6,805 nucleotides of DNA from Gammaproteobacteria bacterium (GTDB lineage: Bacteria > Pseudomonadota > Gammaproteobacteria > Granulosicoccales > Granulosicoccaceae), in assembly GCA_020444765.1 (NCBI GenBank), contig JAGRHW010000192.1, forward strand, positions 1 to 6,805. The letters are read 5' to 3'. Below are positions 1,746 through 6,624 of the stretch, piece after piece. The position numbers and the translations under genes are program-made. The notes under the pieces are model-generated. The model made no database searches, was not told the origin of the DNA, and saw only the letters and a program-made list of their open reading frames with translations. Position 1 is the first letter of the stretch, and every line of letters starts with the position of its first letter.

Positions 1746-1775
1746 GGGAATAAAAAGCCCGATCCGCTGTTTACC
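1746..1775 (+). promoter_or_regulatory. Predicted ECF-sigma promoter of the repeat lipoprotein gene
   Basis: The module GGGAATAAA (1746-1754), 13 bases, TGTTTACC (1768-1775) ends 40 bases before the ATG at 1816. GGAATAA followed about 15 bases later by GTT is a normal -35/-10 arrangement for ECF sigma factors. The same module with the same spacing stands before the P460-sigma-anti-sigma operon at 4004-4033: 22 of 30 positions are identical, including all 17 in the two boxes. Transcription would begin near 1780. Recognition by the sigma factor encoded in this window is inferred. Confidence 0.72.
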
Positions 1776-1815
1776 TGCTTGAGGTTTTCAATTCATTCAA
1801 GCGGAGTAAAGGGTA

Positions 1816-3873
1816 ATGAGGCAGAAAAGTATTTCCCGGACAAAAGCCACGCGCTGTTCGAAACATGTTCTGGCGGTGTGCATTATGGGCGCCATGGCAC
1901 TGAGTGGCTGCGCCGGCGATGGCAGTAACAGTTCATCCGGTGGCGACGCGCAAGTGCCCGATGGCGGGGGACAGGCTGCCGAGTTTTCGCAAAGTCTGGC
2001 ACCACAAACCACCTATACAACCGGGATTGGCAGGGTCTTAACCGAACAGAGTTCGAATCGCACATTGTATGTGTTCGAGAATGATCGCAACGACAGCGAC
2101 GGAGACGGCGCCGGTGATTCGGACTGCAACGGCCGCTGTGCTGAAATCTGGCCACCGCTCTATGCAAAAGATGATGCGGTAGCGAACGGACAGTTCACTA
2201 TTATCGAGCGCGATGACGGACGACGACAGTGGGCATTTAAATCCTTGCCGCTCTATCTGTTTCATACCGACGAACAGGCCGGAGACGTTCAGGGAGAAGG
2301 GGTGAACGATGTCTGGTTTGTTGCGCGCCCGGACCCTTTTGTTGTCACTGAATCCAATGTGGGAGCCGTTTTCAGCGGCACAGGAACGGTGCTGAATGTC
2401 GATGCTGACGGCGCGCGGACGGATGAACGTGCCGATCACGAAGGCTATACGCTGTACGTGTTTGACAAGGATGACAACAATCGCTCCAACTGCAACGGTG
2501 TTCCCTGCGCCGTTACCTGGCCGCCGCTGTATGCCGACAAAGGGGCTGAGGCGACCGGTCATTTTTCCATCTTTGAGCGCGATGACGGAACCGAACAATG
2601 GGCGTATCAGGGCGAACCGTTGTATTTTTTTAAAAATGATACAGCGCCCGGTGACACCAATGGCGACCAGGCGACAGGCAATACCTGGCACGCCGCCCGT
2701 ACCGCTCCCGTGCAGATTTTCACAGACAGCGAACTGGGCAATTACTTTGTCGCCCGCGGTGAGTTCAATGATGTCGGTGATAACGGGGAGTTGACCGACA
2801 GCCGCAGCGACAAAACCGGATTGACGCTGTACACGTTTGAAGCCGATCGACTGGATAAATCCAATGACGGGCTGGGCGATTCGGAATGCAACGGTGTACC
2901 CTGTGCCGTGAACTGGCCGCCACTGTTTGCCGGTGACGATGCTGAGGCGAGCGGTGATTTTACTGTTATCGAGCGGGATGACGGCAGTCGTCAGTGGGCC
3001 TACAACGACCTGCCCTTGTATTTCTGGCACCAGGATGAGGTGGCCGGCGACACTAACGGTGAAGGAGTCGGGGACGTCTGGTATGTTGCGCGTCCGCAAC
3101 CCAAAGCGGTGTCCGGGTCTGCGGCGGGGACGTTGTTTGCCGGTACCGGACCGGTATTTGATGTCAGCGATGATGGCAGTAAAAGCACGGTGCGCGTCGA
3201 CCGAAAAGGTATGACGTTATACATCTTTGATGATGACGTCGAAAACGTTCAGGGTGATGCAGCCGGAGATTCCGATTGTAACGGTCCGTGTGCTGTGATC
3301 TGGCCGCCGCTATACGCAGAAAACGGCGCCCATGCGACTGGCAATTTCTCGGTGATTGAGCGCGATGACGCTACCCGGCAATGGGCGTACAAGGGTCAGC
3401 CTTTGTACTTTTTCAACAGTGACGAACAACCGGGTGACACCCATGGCGATCAGGTCAGAATGAATGCCTGGCATACTGCTCGTCCGGCGCCGTTTCAGAT
3501 TTTCACGTCTGCCGATTACGGTGATATTTTTACAGCGCGCGGCAGCATCGCCGAAGTCACTGCCTCTGGCGGAAAAGCCGGTTCCGCAAGTGATCGCACC
3601 GGTTACGCCGTTTACGCTTTCGACAACGATGCGGCGGATACCGATAACGACGGCGTCGGCGATTCGGACTGCAATGGTCAATGTGCGGTGAACTGGCCGC
3701 CGTTATTCGCAGAGGACAGCGATAGTGGCAGTGGTGATTTCAGCATTATCAAAAGGGACGACGACAGCCTGCAGTGGGCGTACAGGGGGGTGCCTTTGTA
3801 TTTCTGGGCGGCCGAGACGGCACCCGGGCAGCTTGGTGGTGTTTCCGATAGCTGGCATGAAGTCGCCCCCTAG
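1816..3873 (+). CDS. Large lipoprotein with five COG4315-type secreted repeats
   Basis: A 685-residue lipoprotein: basic start, hydrophobic stretch (18-30), lipobox L-S-G-C with lipidated Cys32 followed by Ala, which favours the outer membrane, then a Ser/Gly-rich linker to about 65. Residues 66-685 form five repeats of the family described as predicted lipoproteins with a Yx(FWY)xxD motif (COG4315; Pfam 'secreted repeat of unknown function'). Each repeat has YxFxxD, a CNGxC or CNGxPC cysteine pair, WPPL(Y/F)A, (I/F)(E/K)RDD, QWA(Y/F), and a second YxFxxD-like motif. Most family members I know are much shorter, with one or two repeats. The pairs Cys104/108, 226/231, 358/363, 488/492 and 619/623 are probably disulfides. 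Acidic DxDxDGxGD stretches before the pair, clearest in repeats 1 and 5, resemble calcium-binding loops. The biochemical role is unknown. ATG 1816 follows GGAG at 1803-1806. It shares a promoter module with the P460-sigma operon downstream. Confidence 0.9.
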   Translation: MRQKSISRTKATRCSKHVLAVCIMGAMALSGCAGDGSNSSSGGDAQVPDGGGQAAEFSQSLAPQTTYTTGIGRVLTEQSSNRTLYVFENDRNDSDGDGAGDSDCNGRCAEIWPPLYAKDDAVANGQFTIIERDDGRRQWAFKSLPLYLFHTDEQAGDVQGEGVNDVWFVARPDPFVVTESNVGAVFSGTGTVLNVDADGARTDERADHEGYTLYVFDKDDNNRSNCNGVPCAVTWPPLYADKGAEATGHFSIFERDDGTEQWAYQGEPLYFFKNDTAPGDTNGDQATGNTWHAARTAPVQIFTDSELGNYFVARGEFNDVGDNGELTDSRSDKTGLTLYTFEADRLDKSNDGLGDSECNGVPCAVNWPPLFAGDDAEASGDFTVIERDDGSRQWAYNDLPLYFWHQDEVAGDTNGEGVGDVWYVARPQPKAVSGSAAGTLFAGTGPVFDVSDDGSKSTVRVDRKGMTLYIFDDDVENVQGDAAGDSDCNGPCAVIWPPLYAENGAHATGNFSVIERDDATRQWAYKGQPLYFFNSDEQPGDTHGDQVRMNAWHTARPAPFQIFTSADYGDIFTARGSIAEVTASGGKAGSASDRTGYAVYAFDNDAADTDNDGVGDSDCNGQCAVNWPPLFAEDSDSGSGDFSIIKRDDDSLQWAYRGVPLYFWAAETAPGQLGGVSDSWHEVAP
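2011..3870 (+). repeat. Five tandem protein-coding repeats (order A-B-A-B-A)
   Basis: Approximate units are 2011-2346, 2347-2721, 2722-3111, 3112-3504 and 3505-3870. The Trp of WPPL recurs at residues 112, 235, 367, 496 and 627, a period of 123-132. Units 1 and 3 end with DVW(F/Y)VARP and begin the next unit with (F/L)F(S/A)GTG. Units 2 and 4 end with a WH(A/T)AR segment and AP(V/F)QIFT and lead into a Y/I-F-V/T-ARG start. So a two-repeat block appears to have been duplicated, with a fifth A-type unit closing the array. Unit 2 is shorter because its acidic loop is trimmed. DNA identity between units is modest, so the duplications are old. Confidence 0.8.
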
Positions 3874-3901
3874 GAGCCGATAACAACCTCCTTTCACCCG
3901 G

Positions 3902-3925
3902 CGGCAGCCTGTTCTGCCGTTCTTT
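3902..3925 (+). terminator. Probable rho-independent terminator of the lipoprotein gene
   Basis: CGGCAG (3902-3907) pairs with CTGCCG (3914-3919) across the six-base loop CCTGTT, and is followed by the T-rich TTCTTT. It lies 28 bases after the stop codon. It would separate the lipoprotein gene from the operon downstream. Confidence 0.6.
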
Positions 3926-3953
3926 CAATACCCGCAGCGGGGCCGGTCATTAG

Positions 3954-3972
3954 AGCCGGCCTCCCGGCTTTT
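3954..3972 (+). terminator. Second terminator-like hairpin
   Basis: AGCCGG (3954-3959) pairs with CCGGCT (3964-3969) around the tetraloop CCTC, and the stem runs directly into TTTT (3969-3972). GGCCGG at 3941-3946 could instead pair with the overlapping CCGGCC, giving a competing fold. Together with the hairpin just before it, this gives a strong block to read-through. Confidence 0.55.
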
Positions 3973-4003
3973 ACGGGAAAGTCAGCAGATTTTTCGCATT
4001 CCC

Positions 4004-4033
4004 GGGAATAAATGCGCCGGTCGATTGTTTACC
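4004..4033 (+). promoter_or_regulatory. Predicted ECF-sigma promoter of the P460-sigma-anti-sigma operon
   Basis: GGGAATAAA (4004-4012) and TGTTTACC (4026-4033) are separated by 13 bases, an exact structural match to the module at 1746-1775. It ends 32 bases before the P460 ATG at 4066. Because the operon includes an ECF sigma gene, this looks like a self-activating promoter. A perfect 12-base palindrome, ATTCCCGGGAAT (3998-4009), overlaps the -35 box. It could be an operator, but part of it is simply the -35 sequence itself. Confidence 0.75.
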
Positions 4034-4065: not shown

Positions 4066-4599
4066 ATGAGAATCCCACCGCGCACTTTTGCAGTTACCCT
4101 ATGCCTTGCCGTCTACGCCGGCCACGCCTTTGCCGACGGTCACGTGATGAAGAACGTGGAGCCGGCCCCCAACGGTATTGAATTCCCGGCCGACTATCGC
4201 GACTGGCGGGTTATCTCGGTGTCCCACCGCACGGATCATGAATCGATGCGAGCCATTCTGGGCAATGATATCGCTATCGAAGCGGCACGCGCCGGTACAA
4301 CTAATCCCTGGCCCGAAGGTGCGATGCTGGGCAAAGTGGTCTGGAAGCAAGCGGCCGAAGAGCACTGGCCCCCGGCTATAGCCCCGAAAGCGTTCATTCA
4401 CGTTGAATTCATGTCCAAGGACAGCGAAAAATGGGCGTCAACCGGCGGCTGGGGCTATTCTCGCTGGGTGGGTGATGCACTCGAGCCCTATGGTAAAGAT
4501 GCCGGCTTTGCACAGGAGTGTGTTGCTTGCCATACGCCGGTCAAGTCGCAGGACTGGGTTTTCACAGTACCGGCACAAATGCCGGTTGCGGCACACTGA
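4066..4599 (+). CDS. Periplasmic cytochrome P460 family protein
   Basis: A 177-residue exported haem protein. The signal peptide (basic start, hydrophobic 8-19) should be cut after A-F-A at residue 23. The mature part is a full cytochrome P460 domain: DYRDWRVISVSHRTDHESMR, AILGNDIAIEAARAGTTNPW, PEGAMLGKVVWK, FIHVEFMSKDSEKW, GGWGYSRWVGDALEPYG, and the c-type haem motif CVACH (Cys152, Cys155, His156) near the C-terminus. Family members oxidise hydroxylamine or bind nitric oxide through a haem cross-linked to a Lys; Lys90, Lys94 or Lys108 could serve, but I cannot tell which, so enzyme versus gas-binding function stays open. ATG 4066 is chosen because GAGG (4057-4060) precedes it and the signal peptide starts there; an in-frame ATG at 4011-4013 lies in the promoter. 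First gene of an operon with the sigma and anti-sigma genes. Confidence 0.87.
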   Translation: MRIPPRTFAVTLCLAVYAGHAFADGHVMKNVEPAPNGIEFPADYRDWRVISVSHRTDHESMRAILGNDIAIEAARAGTTNPWPEGAMLGKVVWKQAAEEHWPPAIAPKAFIHVEFMSKDSEKWASTGGWGYSRWVGDALEPYGKDAGFAQECVACHTPVKSQDWVFTVPAQMPVAAH

Positions 4600-4622: not shown

Positions 4623-5132
4623 ATGCCTTCACAACGAGAATTGATCGTCGAGCATATTCCGCGTTTGCGTCGCTATGCGCGCGCGCTGATGAAAAATGAC
4701 AGCCTCGCGGCCGATGATCTTGTGCAGGATTGTCTGGAGCGCGCACTGAGTCGTCTGCATTCCTGGCGACAGGGTAGTGATTTGCGCGCCTGGCTTTTTA
4801 CCATTATGCATAACTTGTATGTCAATCAGGTGCGGCGTGCGAGCAATGGCCCCCGATTTGTTGAAATGCCGGACCAGGGTATAGGCGCTTCAGCTTCCAG
4901 TGCTGAGGCCGGGCTTGCATTGCGAGACCTGAGTCGGGGCGTGGCGGCCCTGCCGCCGGATCAACGGGAAATTCTGCTTCTGGTGTCGTTGGAGGGATTA
5001 CGCTATGCAGAAGTCGCCAGTATCCTGGGTATTCCGGAAGGCACGGTGATGTCCCGCTTGTCCAGAGCACGCAAACAACTGCGCAATCTGATGTTACACG
5101 AAGCCAATACGTCACTGCGGAGAGTGAAATGA
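4623..5132 (+). CDS. ECF-type RNA polymerase sigma factor
   Basis: A 169-residue sigma-70 family protein with the two-domain ECF layout. Region 2 spans about residues 11-72 (RLRRYARALMKNDSLAADDL, VQDCLERAL, then LRAWLFTIMHNLYVNQVRR) and binds the -10 element and core polymerase. Region 4 spans about 107-156 (LPPDQREILLLVSLEGLRYA, EVASILGIPEGTVMSRLSRA), with the helix-turn-helix that reads the -35 element. No region 1 or 3 and no C-terminal extension. The start at 4623 sits 23 bases after the P460 stop; longer in-frame starts would lie inside the P460 gene and add residues unlike any sigma factor. It overlaps the anti-sigma gene by four bases (ATGA), implying coupled translation. Its target is probably the GGGAATAAA-N13-TGTTTACC module found twice in this window. 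Confidence 0.93.
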   Translation: MPSQRELIVEHIPRLRRYARALMKNDSLAADDLVQDCLERALSRLHSWRQGSDLRAWLFTIMHNLYVNQVRRASNGPRFVEMPDQGIGASASSAEAGLALRDLSRGVAALPPDQREILLLVSLEGLRYAEVASILGIPEGTVMSRLSRARKQLRNLMLHEANTSLRRVK

Positions 5133-5902
5133 CTTACAAGACACCCGTCACTGAGAGTGACCTGCACGCCTATATTGATGGGGAGTTATCACCGGATCGG
5201 CAACGTGAGGTAGAGCGCTATTTGCAGGACAATCCGGAAGCAGCAAAAAAAGTCGCGCACTATCAGACAATCAATCAGCAATTGGGGCAGCTTTACGATC
5301 CGATCCTGGAAGAACCGCTGCCGGCACAGTTGCAAATCAGGAAACAGCTGCCTTCCCGCTGGATGCGCGTGGCGGCCGTGGCAGCCTGGATGTCGTTCGG
5401 CGGACTGATCGGCTGGCAGCTTCATGACGGAAACCTGGGCATTATTGCGCAAGCCGACGCTCTCGAACGGGAACATCTCGTCAAACCGGCGGCTTTTGCG
5501 CACAAGGTGTTCTCCGCGGAAGTGCGTCATCCGGTCGAGGTGGGTGCGGATCAGCAAGAGCATCTGGTCGCCTGGCTGTCCAATCGCATGAAGACCGAAA
5601 TCCGCGCGCCAAGCCTTGCCGATCAGGGCTATACACTGATGGGCGGGCGGCTGCTGCCCTCGACCAATCGAATGGCCGCCCAGTTCATGTACCAGCACCA
5701 GAACGGCGAGCGGGTAACGCTGTATATTCGCAAGGGTGAGTGGGATGCCGAAGAAACGGCATTGCGTTTTGCGGAGCAGGACGGCACCGGCGTTTCGTAC
5801 TGGATCAACGGTCCGATGGCGTATTCCATTGTCGGTCAGCTGGAACAGAACAAGCTGCTTGCGTTGTCGGAGACGGTGTATCCGCAGTTGAGCAACTATT
5901 AG
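5129..5902 (+). CDS. Membrane-bound anti-sigma factor
   Basis: A 257-residue single-pass membrane protein. The cytoplasmic part (1-79) begins VTESDLHAYIDGELSPDRQR and continues with EVERYLQDNPEAAKKVAHY and LYDPILEEPLPAQL. This is the helical anti-sigma domain usually found beside ECF sigma genes. Unlike zinc-type (ZAS) anti-sigma factors it has no HxxxCxxC motif and indeed no Cys at all, so a thiol-zinc switch is excluded. One transmembrane helix lies at about 81-98 (VAAVAAWMSFGGLIGWQL). The remaining 160 or so residues form a periplasmic domain that probably senses the signal or is cleaved by a site-1 protease. Its start codon lies within the stop of the sigma gene. Inferred role: it keeps the sigma factor inactive at the membrane until an envelope cue releases it. 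Confidence 0.88.
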   Translation: MTYKTPVTESDLHAYIDGELSPDRQREVERYLQDNPEAAKKVAHYQTINQQLGQLYDPILEEPLPAQLQIRKQLPSRWMRVAAVAAWMSFGGLIGWQLHDGNLGIIAQADALEREHLVKPAAFAHKVFSAEVRHPVEVGADQQEHLVAWLSNRMKTEIRAPSLADQGYTLMGGRLLPSTNRMAAQFMYQHQNGERVTLYIRKGEWDAEETALRFAEQDGTGVSYWINGPMAYSIVGQLEQNKLLALSETVYPQLSNY

Positions 5903-5908
5903 CGAAAT

Positions 5909-6406
5909 TCAGCGCAGCTGACTTACTGCGCAATAGGTTTTCTGGATAAGAAACGCATCATGACTCGCCCGATGACGGTCGATGGTCTGTTCGAGGGTAA
6001 TTCTCGCCTTGGTGTCATCCCAGCGCGCCAGATCTTGCTCTTTGAGAATCGCCTCAATGGGGCTGAGCGTGAATTGCATTTCCAGACCTGCGGCGGCGAA
6101 GAGGGCATTCAGCCAGGGTGAGTCAACCACCCAGCCGTCGGAGTAGGCGGTGGTATTTTGCAGCTGTTCATTCAACTCATTGGCAACTTCGTGGGCGGGT
6201 CTGCCCGTCGCCAGCAGTGTTTCGCGAGAGATATTGTGTATGGCCTCGGCGCGCGGATCCCAGTGCGTCCAGTCGGGTTGCGGCTGAATCAGCGAGCAAT
6301 ACCGTTCACCTTCAGGCGTGATAAAGCCGACTTCAATCGGATAGCTGCGCGAGCCGAAGCCGGAGGCTTCAACATCAATGATGCAGGGTATGCCGGTTTT
6401 ACCCAT
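5909..6406 (-). CDS. DEDDh-type 3'-5' exonuclease domain protein
   Basis: A 165-residue protein consisting of one DnaQ-like exonuclease domain. Motif I is IIDVEASGFG (Asp11, Glu13) and is followed by SYPIEVGF. IHNIS (56-60) matches the IHxIS element of this fold. Motif II is probably AYSDGWVVDSPWLNALF (Asp90 or Asp95). Motif III is HRASHD (His145, Asp150; H-x4-D), placing it in the DEDDh subclass. All metal-binding acidic residues appear present, so it should be active. The family removes nucleotides from DNA or RNA 3' ends; the substrate is not evident. The ATG has GAGGAA eight bases upstream (6415-6420). It is convergent with the anti-sigma gene, with only six bases between the stops and no terminator hairpin. 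An unrelated ORF ends 20 bases upstream on the same strand. Confidence 0.82.
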   Translation of the reverse strand: MGKTGIPCIIDVEASGFGSRSYPIEVGFITPEGERYCSLIQPQPDWTHWDPRAEAIHNISRETLLATGRPAHEVANELNEQLQNTTAYSDGWVVDSPWLNALFAAAGLEMQFTLSPIEAILKEQDLARWDDTKARITLEQTIDRHRASHDAFLIQKTYCAVSQLR

Positions 6407-6426: not shown

Positions 6427-6624
6427 TCAGTTCAGGTCATCCATCGATAAAGCGGTGGCAAACGGCAGATCTTTAGCGGCCTTTCTACCGAGAAGGTCTG
6501 GCAGGTACTTCGGGTGTAAGCCATAGCCTGGTGGATACTCCGAACTTTGTCGGCGGTCACAAAACCATTTTCCGACATCGACACCAACATTGATTGTTGA
6601 CTTTCTCCTGGAGTGATTTGTCAT
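6427..6624 (-). pseudogene. Chimeric ORF starting as an IS110-family transposase
   Basis: A 65-residue ORF. Residues 1-20 (MTNHSRRKSTINVGVDVGKW) match the start of IS110-family transposases, where the Asp of GVDVGK is the first residue of the DEDD RuvC-like catalytic site. After Trp20 the similarity stops and the rest (CDRRQSSEYPPGYGLHPKYL, PDLLGRKAAKDLPFATALSM, DDLN) is not IS110-like and is unknown to me. It reads like genuine coding sequence and may be the end of a native gene that lay upstream of the exonuclease. A deletion joining an IS110 start to that gene is the simplest explanation. The ATG has AAGGG nine bases upstream. Transposase function is certainly lost; whether the fusion is made is unknown. 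Confidence 0.6.

Follow-up and report, generated by a model that had tools for sequence, protein, structure and literature searches.

Twin promoter sites predicted to join a cytochrome P460 operon and a five-domain Lipoprotein_15 gene under an ECF26-type sigma factor

Described ECF26 systems and the locus

In Sinorhizobium meliloti, the extracytoplasmic function (ECF) sigma factor RpoE1, a member of group ECF26, is encoded in the operon SMc01418-rpoE1-ecfR1. According to PMC3511301, SMc01418 is secreted, carries a repeated 'lipoprotein 15' motif and is a proven RpoE1 target; PMC6180224 counts three target genes in the RpoE1 regulon. Here we compare with this system a stretch of 6,805 nucleotides (the window) from a gammaproteobacterium of the family Granulosicoccaceae (contig JAGRHW010000192.1), in which two promoter-like sites with identical boxes precede a Lipoprotein_15 gene and an operon encoding a cytochrome P460, an ECF sigma factor and a membrane anti-sigma factor. 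Like the S. meliloti RpoE1 operon, the circuit predicted for the window has an autoregulated ECF sigma factor, a membrane anti-sigma factor encoded downstream and a very small regulon. The S. meliloti RpoE1 promoter reads GGGAATAAA-N14-TGTCTTAT, whereas the window combines a spacer of 13 nucleotides (nt) with the -10-like box TGTTTACC. The first operon gene encodes the secreted Lipoprotein_15 protein in S. meliloti and a P460 in the window, and the lipoprotein of the window, unlike that of the S. meliloti operon, comprises five domains and would be transcribed from a promoter of its own. That an ECF26 sigma factor can control a Lipoprotein_15 gene is already known and constitutes half of the link claimed here.

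Further ECF26-type sigma factors, RpoE1/SigE of Starkeya novella and RpoE4 of S. meliloti, govern sulfite regulons with a GGAAT -35 element and exported redox targets (PMC6527743). As reported there, S. novella RpoE1 controls a DUF305 gene and probably also the YVTN beta-propeller gene behind it; in L004, one of the related loci analysed below, a beta-propeller lipoprotein likewise stands behind a window-type motif. Sulfite oxidases are among the targets of those regulons, whereas none is encoded in the window. The inducers differ between these relatives, with sulfite acting in S. meliloti and tetrathionate in S. novella. In the open-licence PMC literature we found no paper joining an ECF sigma factor with COG4315 or with the term 'Lipoprotein_15', and none for COG4315 alone; PMC3511301 describes the link under the wording 'lipoprotein 15'. 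Nor was cytochrome P460 joined to a sigma factor in the passages of the one review there that names both, or in those of PMC9693385.

Twin promoter sites in the window

We consider it likely that both sites serve as promoters for the ECF26-type sigma factor encoded next to them, which would amplify its own synthesis and induce cytochrome P460 and the Lipoprotein_15 protein as exported effectors. Judged by sequence, promoter 1 is predicted to drive the Lipoprotein_15 gene and promoter 2 the P460-sigma-anti-sigma operon. The features concerned are as follows (aa, amino acids).

1746-1775, plus strand: predicted promoter 1, with -35-like box GGGAATAAA (1746-1754), 13-nt spacer and -10-like box TGTTTACC (1768-1775)
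1816-3873, plus strand: Lipoprotein_15 (COG4315-type) lipoprotein of five domains, 685 aa (PF03640, 8 stretches)
4004-4033, plus strand: predicted promoter 2, with -35-like box GGGAATAAA (4004-4012) and -10-like box TGTTTACC (4026-4033)
4066-4599, plus strand: exported cytochrome P460, 177 aa (PF16694, 132.5 bits; PDB 6hiu, E 4.4e-53)
4623-5132, plus strand: ECF sigma factor, 169 aa, with Sigma70_r2 (7-74) and Sigma70_r4_2 (102-153)
5129-5902, plus strand: membrane anti-sigma factor, 257 aa, with N-terminal sigma-binding helices, one predicted membrane helix (77-97) and a periplasmic domain

A preliminary description of this DNA had reported an identical motif at both positions at proper distances from start codons, and had called the four genes. 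The motif is exact, and a search of the whole window allowing up to three mismatches returned these two sites only. Between the end of the -10-like box and the start codon lie 40 nt for the lipoprotein gene (ATG at 1816) and 32 nt for the P460 gene (ATG at 4066), and the gene calls, all on the plus strand, agree with Pfam and the reading frames. As also described earlier, the sites are identical at 17 of 17 box positions and at 5 of 13 spacer positions; their flanks are unrelated, with identity at background level both upstream (11/60) and downstream (16/50). Conservation confined to the boxes shows that the two sites are not a recent copy, in line with the earlier argument.

By chance, 0.03 sites are expected at up to three mismatches (200 dinucleotide shuffles, none of which contained two sites). 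A matrix trained on 39 seed-form sites from related loci, the window excluded (consensus GGGAATAAA-N13/14-TGTTTACC), assigns both window sites a score of 28.9, the top of the training range of 18.7-28.9. The best distinct site in the rest of the window reaches 5.1 and one-base spacer shifts of the two sites 10.1 and 6.8, and the best scores in 40 Markov-shuffled windows have a mean of 8.5 and a maximum of 18.0. Given that the window is a single contig, the promoter of the lipoprotein gene might be read as a chance match or as the inert relic of an old duplication. The low chance expectation, the distance between 18.0 and 28.9, the retention of the boxes amid diverged spacer and flanks, and the position of the site 70 nt 5' of the start codon of a gene whose family is known to be ECF26-controlled make this highly improbable.

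The motif in related loci and genomes

Relatives of the anti-sigma factor numbered 4420 at E<=0.001, and 40 of the 120 listed were aligned as the query. As related loci we took the best 80 of 252 stretches from titled genome records that encode such a relative; 77 contain both sigma and anti-sigma genes (L041, L055 and L072 were dropped), which together with the window gives 78 loci. The seed motif occurs within 1.5 kb 5' of the sigma gene in 40 of them. Its density upstream of sigma, with 40 occurrences in 110 kb, is 65 times that in the rest of these loci, with 12 in 2.14 Mb strand-bases. At the own-operon threshold of 17.5, the matrix finds a match in 53 of the 78 loci, namely the 39 training loci, the window and 13 others; with training loci included, 19 of 23 P460-type and 10 of 17 Lipoprotein_15-type operons have one. 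Among the upstream regions of 18 loci outside the first 80, ten score at least 13 and five at least 17.5, as opposed to one and none for the reverse complements and none at either level for the reversed sequences of the same regions. This set leaves out L147, L151 and L159, which equal L024, L037 and L069, respectively, and L166, which shares sequence with L009.

Across 274 genomes, the strict motif gave five matches, three at or beside operons of this family and two elsewhere; it is present in 3 of 26 genomes with the anti-sigma factor versus 2 of 248 without it (Fisher p 0.007). A slightly looser form, applied to 24 operon-bearing genomes picked from the related loci, yielded 13 matches in 12 genomes (one with the reversed control); all but one of the 13 fall at or next to the operon. 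A still looser form yielded 32 matches in 25 of 35 genomes, 20 at or beside the operon (control, 4). Since the motif is scarce outside sigma operons in whole genomes, the regulon that it defines is tiny, and the small regulon proposed in the preliminary description is supported.

This distribution also bears on the idea that the sites are read chiefly by a different sigma factor of the cell, namely a further ECF26 paralogue, and that the adjacent one is not the link. ECF26 paralogues of S. meliloti cross-activate promoters (PMC6180224), and Sulfuricella T08 carries two such operons (L022 and L081); yet the motif goes together with this sigma/anti-sigma pair and is seldom found apart from it, and we regard the idea as improbable. 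Even a paralogue with the same motif would still place both genes in one regulon.

Table 1 of PMC6180224 lists 32 S. meliloti promoters, some of which its authors had not mapped. Each was grouped by the sigma factor with the strongest effect; the matrix places the promoter of SMc01418, the RpoE1-dependent Lipoprotein_15 gene, first (15.9) and ranks the 12 ECF26-target promoters above the 20 others (p 0.001). Against control of both window sites by the adjacent sigma factor stand several observations. The matrix gives the strong RpoE1 target SMc02156 only -2.0, which puts it among the 4 of 12 ECF26-listed promoters below zero, and two ECF15 promoters reach 9.9 and 11.4. A strong motif is absent from 25 of the 78 loci. 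In S. novella, a 270-bp region upstream of rpoE1 showed no activation by RpoE1 (PMC6527743), and autoregulation is therefore not universal. Moreover, any Lipoprotein_15 relative occurs in only one of the 24 genomes with related operons, Sulfuricella T08, where it heads L081, and the relatives from which the inducer is deduced disagree (sulfite versus tetrathionate).

The gene preceding sigma encodes a P460 in 23 of the 77 related loci (23 assemblies, one with a broken P460 frame) and a Lipoprotein_15 protein, mostly of a single domain and ~130 aa, in 17; the two families thus each precede this sigma type, in different lineages. By hand reading, eight of the other 37 loci have a SnoaL-like exported protein there, three an 80-aa exported protein, and the remaining ones no clear gene; Pfam finds SnoaL_2 in the pre-sigma proteins of eight loci. 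A gene recurring directly 5' of sigma could suggest that the Lipoprotein_15 protein, P460 or both belong to the sensing apparatus and feed back on the anti-sigma factor instead of acting as effectors. This gene, however, swaps among unrelated families (P460, Lipoprotein_15, SnoaL-like, 80-aa exported) while the anti-sigma factor stays homologous, the window lipoprotein is served by a promoter of its own, and 30 of 32 P460 sequences retain the active-site residues, so that we consider a sensing role unlikely.

The SnoaL_2-like exported protein of ~142 aa takes the place of P460 at L021:6617-7045, L022:9039-9467 and L051:8952-9383, among eight operons. The ~80-aa exported family lies before sigma or behind a further promoter copy (L024:6406-6657, L033:9153-9392, L052:2625-2885, L038:500-757), and in L116 behind a perfect motif on a separate contig. 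At L055:3939-4820, a P460 open reading frame (ORF) overlaps and follows the anti-sigma gene rather than preceding sigma.

As only 1 of the 24 operon-bearing genomes has a Lipoprotein_15 relative, the pairing of P460 and Lipoprotein_15 in the window is unusual. Conservation of the motif in related genomes, a check named in the preliminary description, is borne out by the related loci. In the window, a P460-type operon is accompanied by a gene for a five-domain lipoprotein that would form a separate transcription unit. Three relatives, an anti-sigma factor (P0005, 70%), a P460 (P0244, 70%) and a lipoprotein cut at its start (P0124, 73%), are each recorded on a JGI contig with a length of 3784 bp; the three probably lie on one contig in the gene order of the window, and their sizes fit.

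Of the sites scoring at least 17.5, 18 lie neither within an operon nor in the promoter region belonging to it, the lipoprotein site of the window being one of them. Thirteen of these (12 of 17 without the window) lie 70-176 nt before an exported-looking gene, compared with 662 of 4000 random positions in the same crude test, and the 12 non-window sites adjoin the sigma operon. Behind extra promoter copies, cytochrome c' (PF01322) was found in 4 of 25 scanned proteins. The cytochrome c' loci L027, L040, L042 and L045, assigned by C-terminal haem motifs, represent three species, since L040 and L045 come from strains of the same species and amount to a single biological case. Other extra-site genes encode a CHRD lipoprotein (L044), the beta-propeller lipoprotein of L004 and further exported proteins. 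Because such extra sites recur, a promoter copy before an adjacent exported protein is a habit of the family, of which the window is one case.

Sigma factor, anti-sigma factor and effectors

The sigma factor consists of regions 2 and 4 only, as expected of group ECF26, is followed directly by the membrane anti-sigma gene, whose start overlaps the sigma stop (ATGA), and is associated with a GGAAT-type -35 box. TIGR02937, the ECF superfamily model of NCBIfam, alone exceeded its cut-off among the 25 matches listed of 88. As part of the proposed circuit as a whole, assignment of the sigma factor to the ECF26 (RpoE1) type is likely from these sequence traits. In a midpoint-rooted sigma tree it belongs to a 26-tip clade (local support 0.889) whose 25 other members include 21 of the P460 type, with L001 as its sister (0.893). 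The P460-type sigma factors of L006 and L008 lie outside this clade, and the Lipoprotein_15-type ones elsewhere in the tree.

In the modelled anti-sigma factor, the membrane helix (77-97) is followed by a single periplasmic domain (140-257), whose predicted fold is that of RseB/MucB domain 2; one polypeptide would accordingly combine an RseA-like with an RseB-like part. In the RseA-RseB and MucA-MucB systems of sigma-E control, RseB is separate, whereas here the RseB-like domain and the anti-sigma factor are joined in a fusion. Nothing in the model corresponds to the large RseB domain, and sequence identity to RseB/MucB is only about 13-16%. Going by the model, the window protein resembles RseB but is not an RseB, which is a separate soluble periplasmic protein of two domains. 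If true, the predicted fusion would represent a compact version of the classic envelope-stress sensor.

We propose that at rest the sigma factor would be held by the anti-sigma factor (5129-5902) with its RseB-like periplasmic domain fused in cis, and that a periplasmic or envelope signal would release it. The freed sigma factor would then transcribe its own operon and thereby raise the levels of P460 and both regulators in a positive loop; in parallel it would transcribe the adjacent five-domain Lipoprotein_15 gene as a separate transcript. The sites of action would be the periplasm for the haem enzyme and the outer envelope for the lipoprotein. Sequence itself shows the promoter motif and its conservation, the order of the genes and the intact active-site residues of P460; recognition by the window sigma factor, positive autoregulation and the effector role of the products are what we infer.

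Least certain is the signal, which may be reactive nitrogen or sulfur stress. Leading candidates are sulfite or tetrathionate, by analogy with the relatives, and reactive nitrogen species, as suggested by P460 and cytochrome c'. P460 and Lipoprotein_15 under one promoter signature, together with cytochrome c' in related loci, suggest one shared stress. More tentatively, the related operons could form an undescribed but widespread gammaproteobacterial envelope-stress branch, with an ECF26-like sigma factor, an anti-sigma factor with a built-in RseB-like sensor and exchangeable exported effectors, in which Lipoprotein_15 repeat proteins are replaced or joined by haem proteins (P460, cytochrome c') that bind or convert NO and hydroxylamine. 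P460 would then be a stress-defence enzyme here, not a nitrification enzyme.

We are aware of no settled physiological role for cytochromes P460 outside ammonia oxidisers, nor of an established one for Lipoprotein_15 proteins. The recurring, apparently autoregulated P460-sigma operon offers an inducible handle, in that the role follows once the inducer is found, and by joining both families the window points to a shared, testable role for two poorly understood proteins. The earlier statement that neither has an assigned role was too strong: some cytochromes P460 oxidise hydroxylamine (PMC11928373), and a Lipoprotein_15 protein, SMc01418, is the RpoE1 target introduced above.

Similarity of the window P460 to that of Methylococcus capsulatus (6hiu) spans most of its length. 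Thiogranum longum, a culturable relative, also encodes a P460 of the window type. The window protein has the haem motif CVACH, CxxCH being present in both, and its Lys90, Glu114 and Arg62 correspond to M. capsulatus Lys78, Asp102 and Arg50; in Table 2 of PMC11928373 these positions are the lysine cross-link, the distal carboxylate found in active members and the arginine cap. The carboxylate is Glu, as in Nitrosomonas europaea P460, whereas M. capsulatus has Asp; also unlike the M. capsulatus protein, the window P460 sits in a sigma/anti-sigma operon. The K/E/R/R/R set and CxxCH are present in 30 of the 32 compared sequences, the exceptions being L012, which is incomplete, and L007, which lacks the haem motif. 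The window protein is thus predicted from its residues to be of the active, hydroxylamine-oxidising type.

The 685-aa lipoprotein has a signal peptide with a lipobox-like LSGC at Cys32, read by eye. It matches PF03640 with 306.3 bits (curated cut-off 24.4) and NF040526 (SCO0930_lipo) with 289 bits (cut-off 275), the latter in three stretches on 685 aa compared with a model of 311 positions. Its domains are aligned WPP-anchored repeats.

1975-2337, plus strand: Lipoprotein_15 domain 1
2344-2706, plus strand: Lipoprotein_15 domain 2
2740-3102, plus strand: Lipoprotein_15 domain 3, structure modelled (pLDDT 82)
3127-3489, plus strand: Lipoprotein_15 domain 4
3520-3870, plus strand: Lipoprotein_15 domain 5

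A fold search of modelled domain 3 against the PDB gave no match. Across the domains (1975-3870), DxDxDGxGDSDC loops are by eye reminiscent of calcium-binding loops, and the domain alignment contains a conserved Cys pair.

Other features of the window

Positions 1-1740 contain small unrelated ORFs, among them a 142-aa lipoprotein and a 151-aa AHSA1/START-like protein. GCCTAAC/GTTAGGC-like sequences occur near 116-122, 553 and 1200-1240, with inverted repeats at 37-100; this region looks like integron cassettes with attC-like sites. Short stretches at 620-720 and 1560-1640 resemble, by eye, the starts of IS3-type transposase orfA and are probably remnants. On the minus strand, a 65-aa ORF at 6427-6624 (VGVDVGKWFCDRR...) has no Pfam match above cut-off and by eye resembles the N terminus of an IS110-type transposase, and a 165-aa ORF at 5909-6406 weakly matches an Rv2179c-like 3'-5' exoribonuclease domain (E 0.095).

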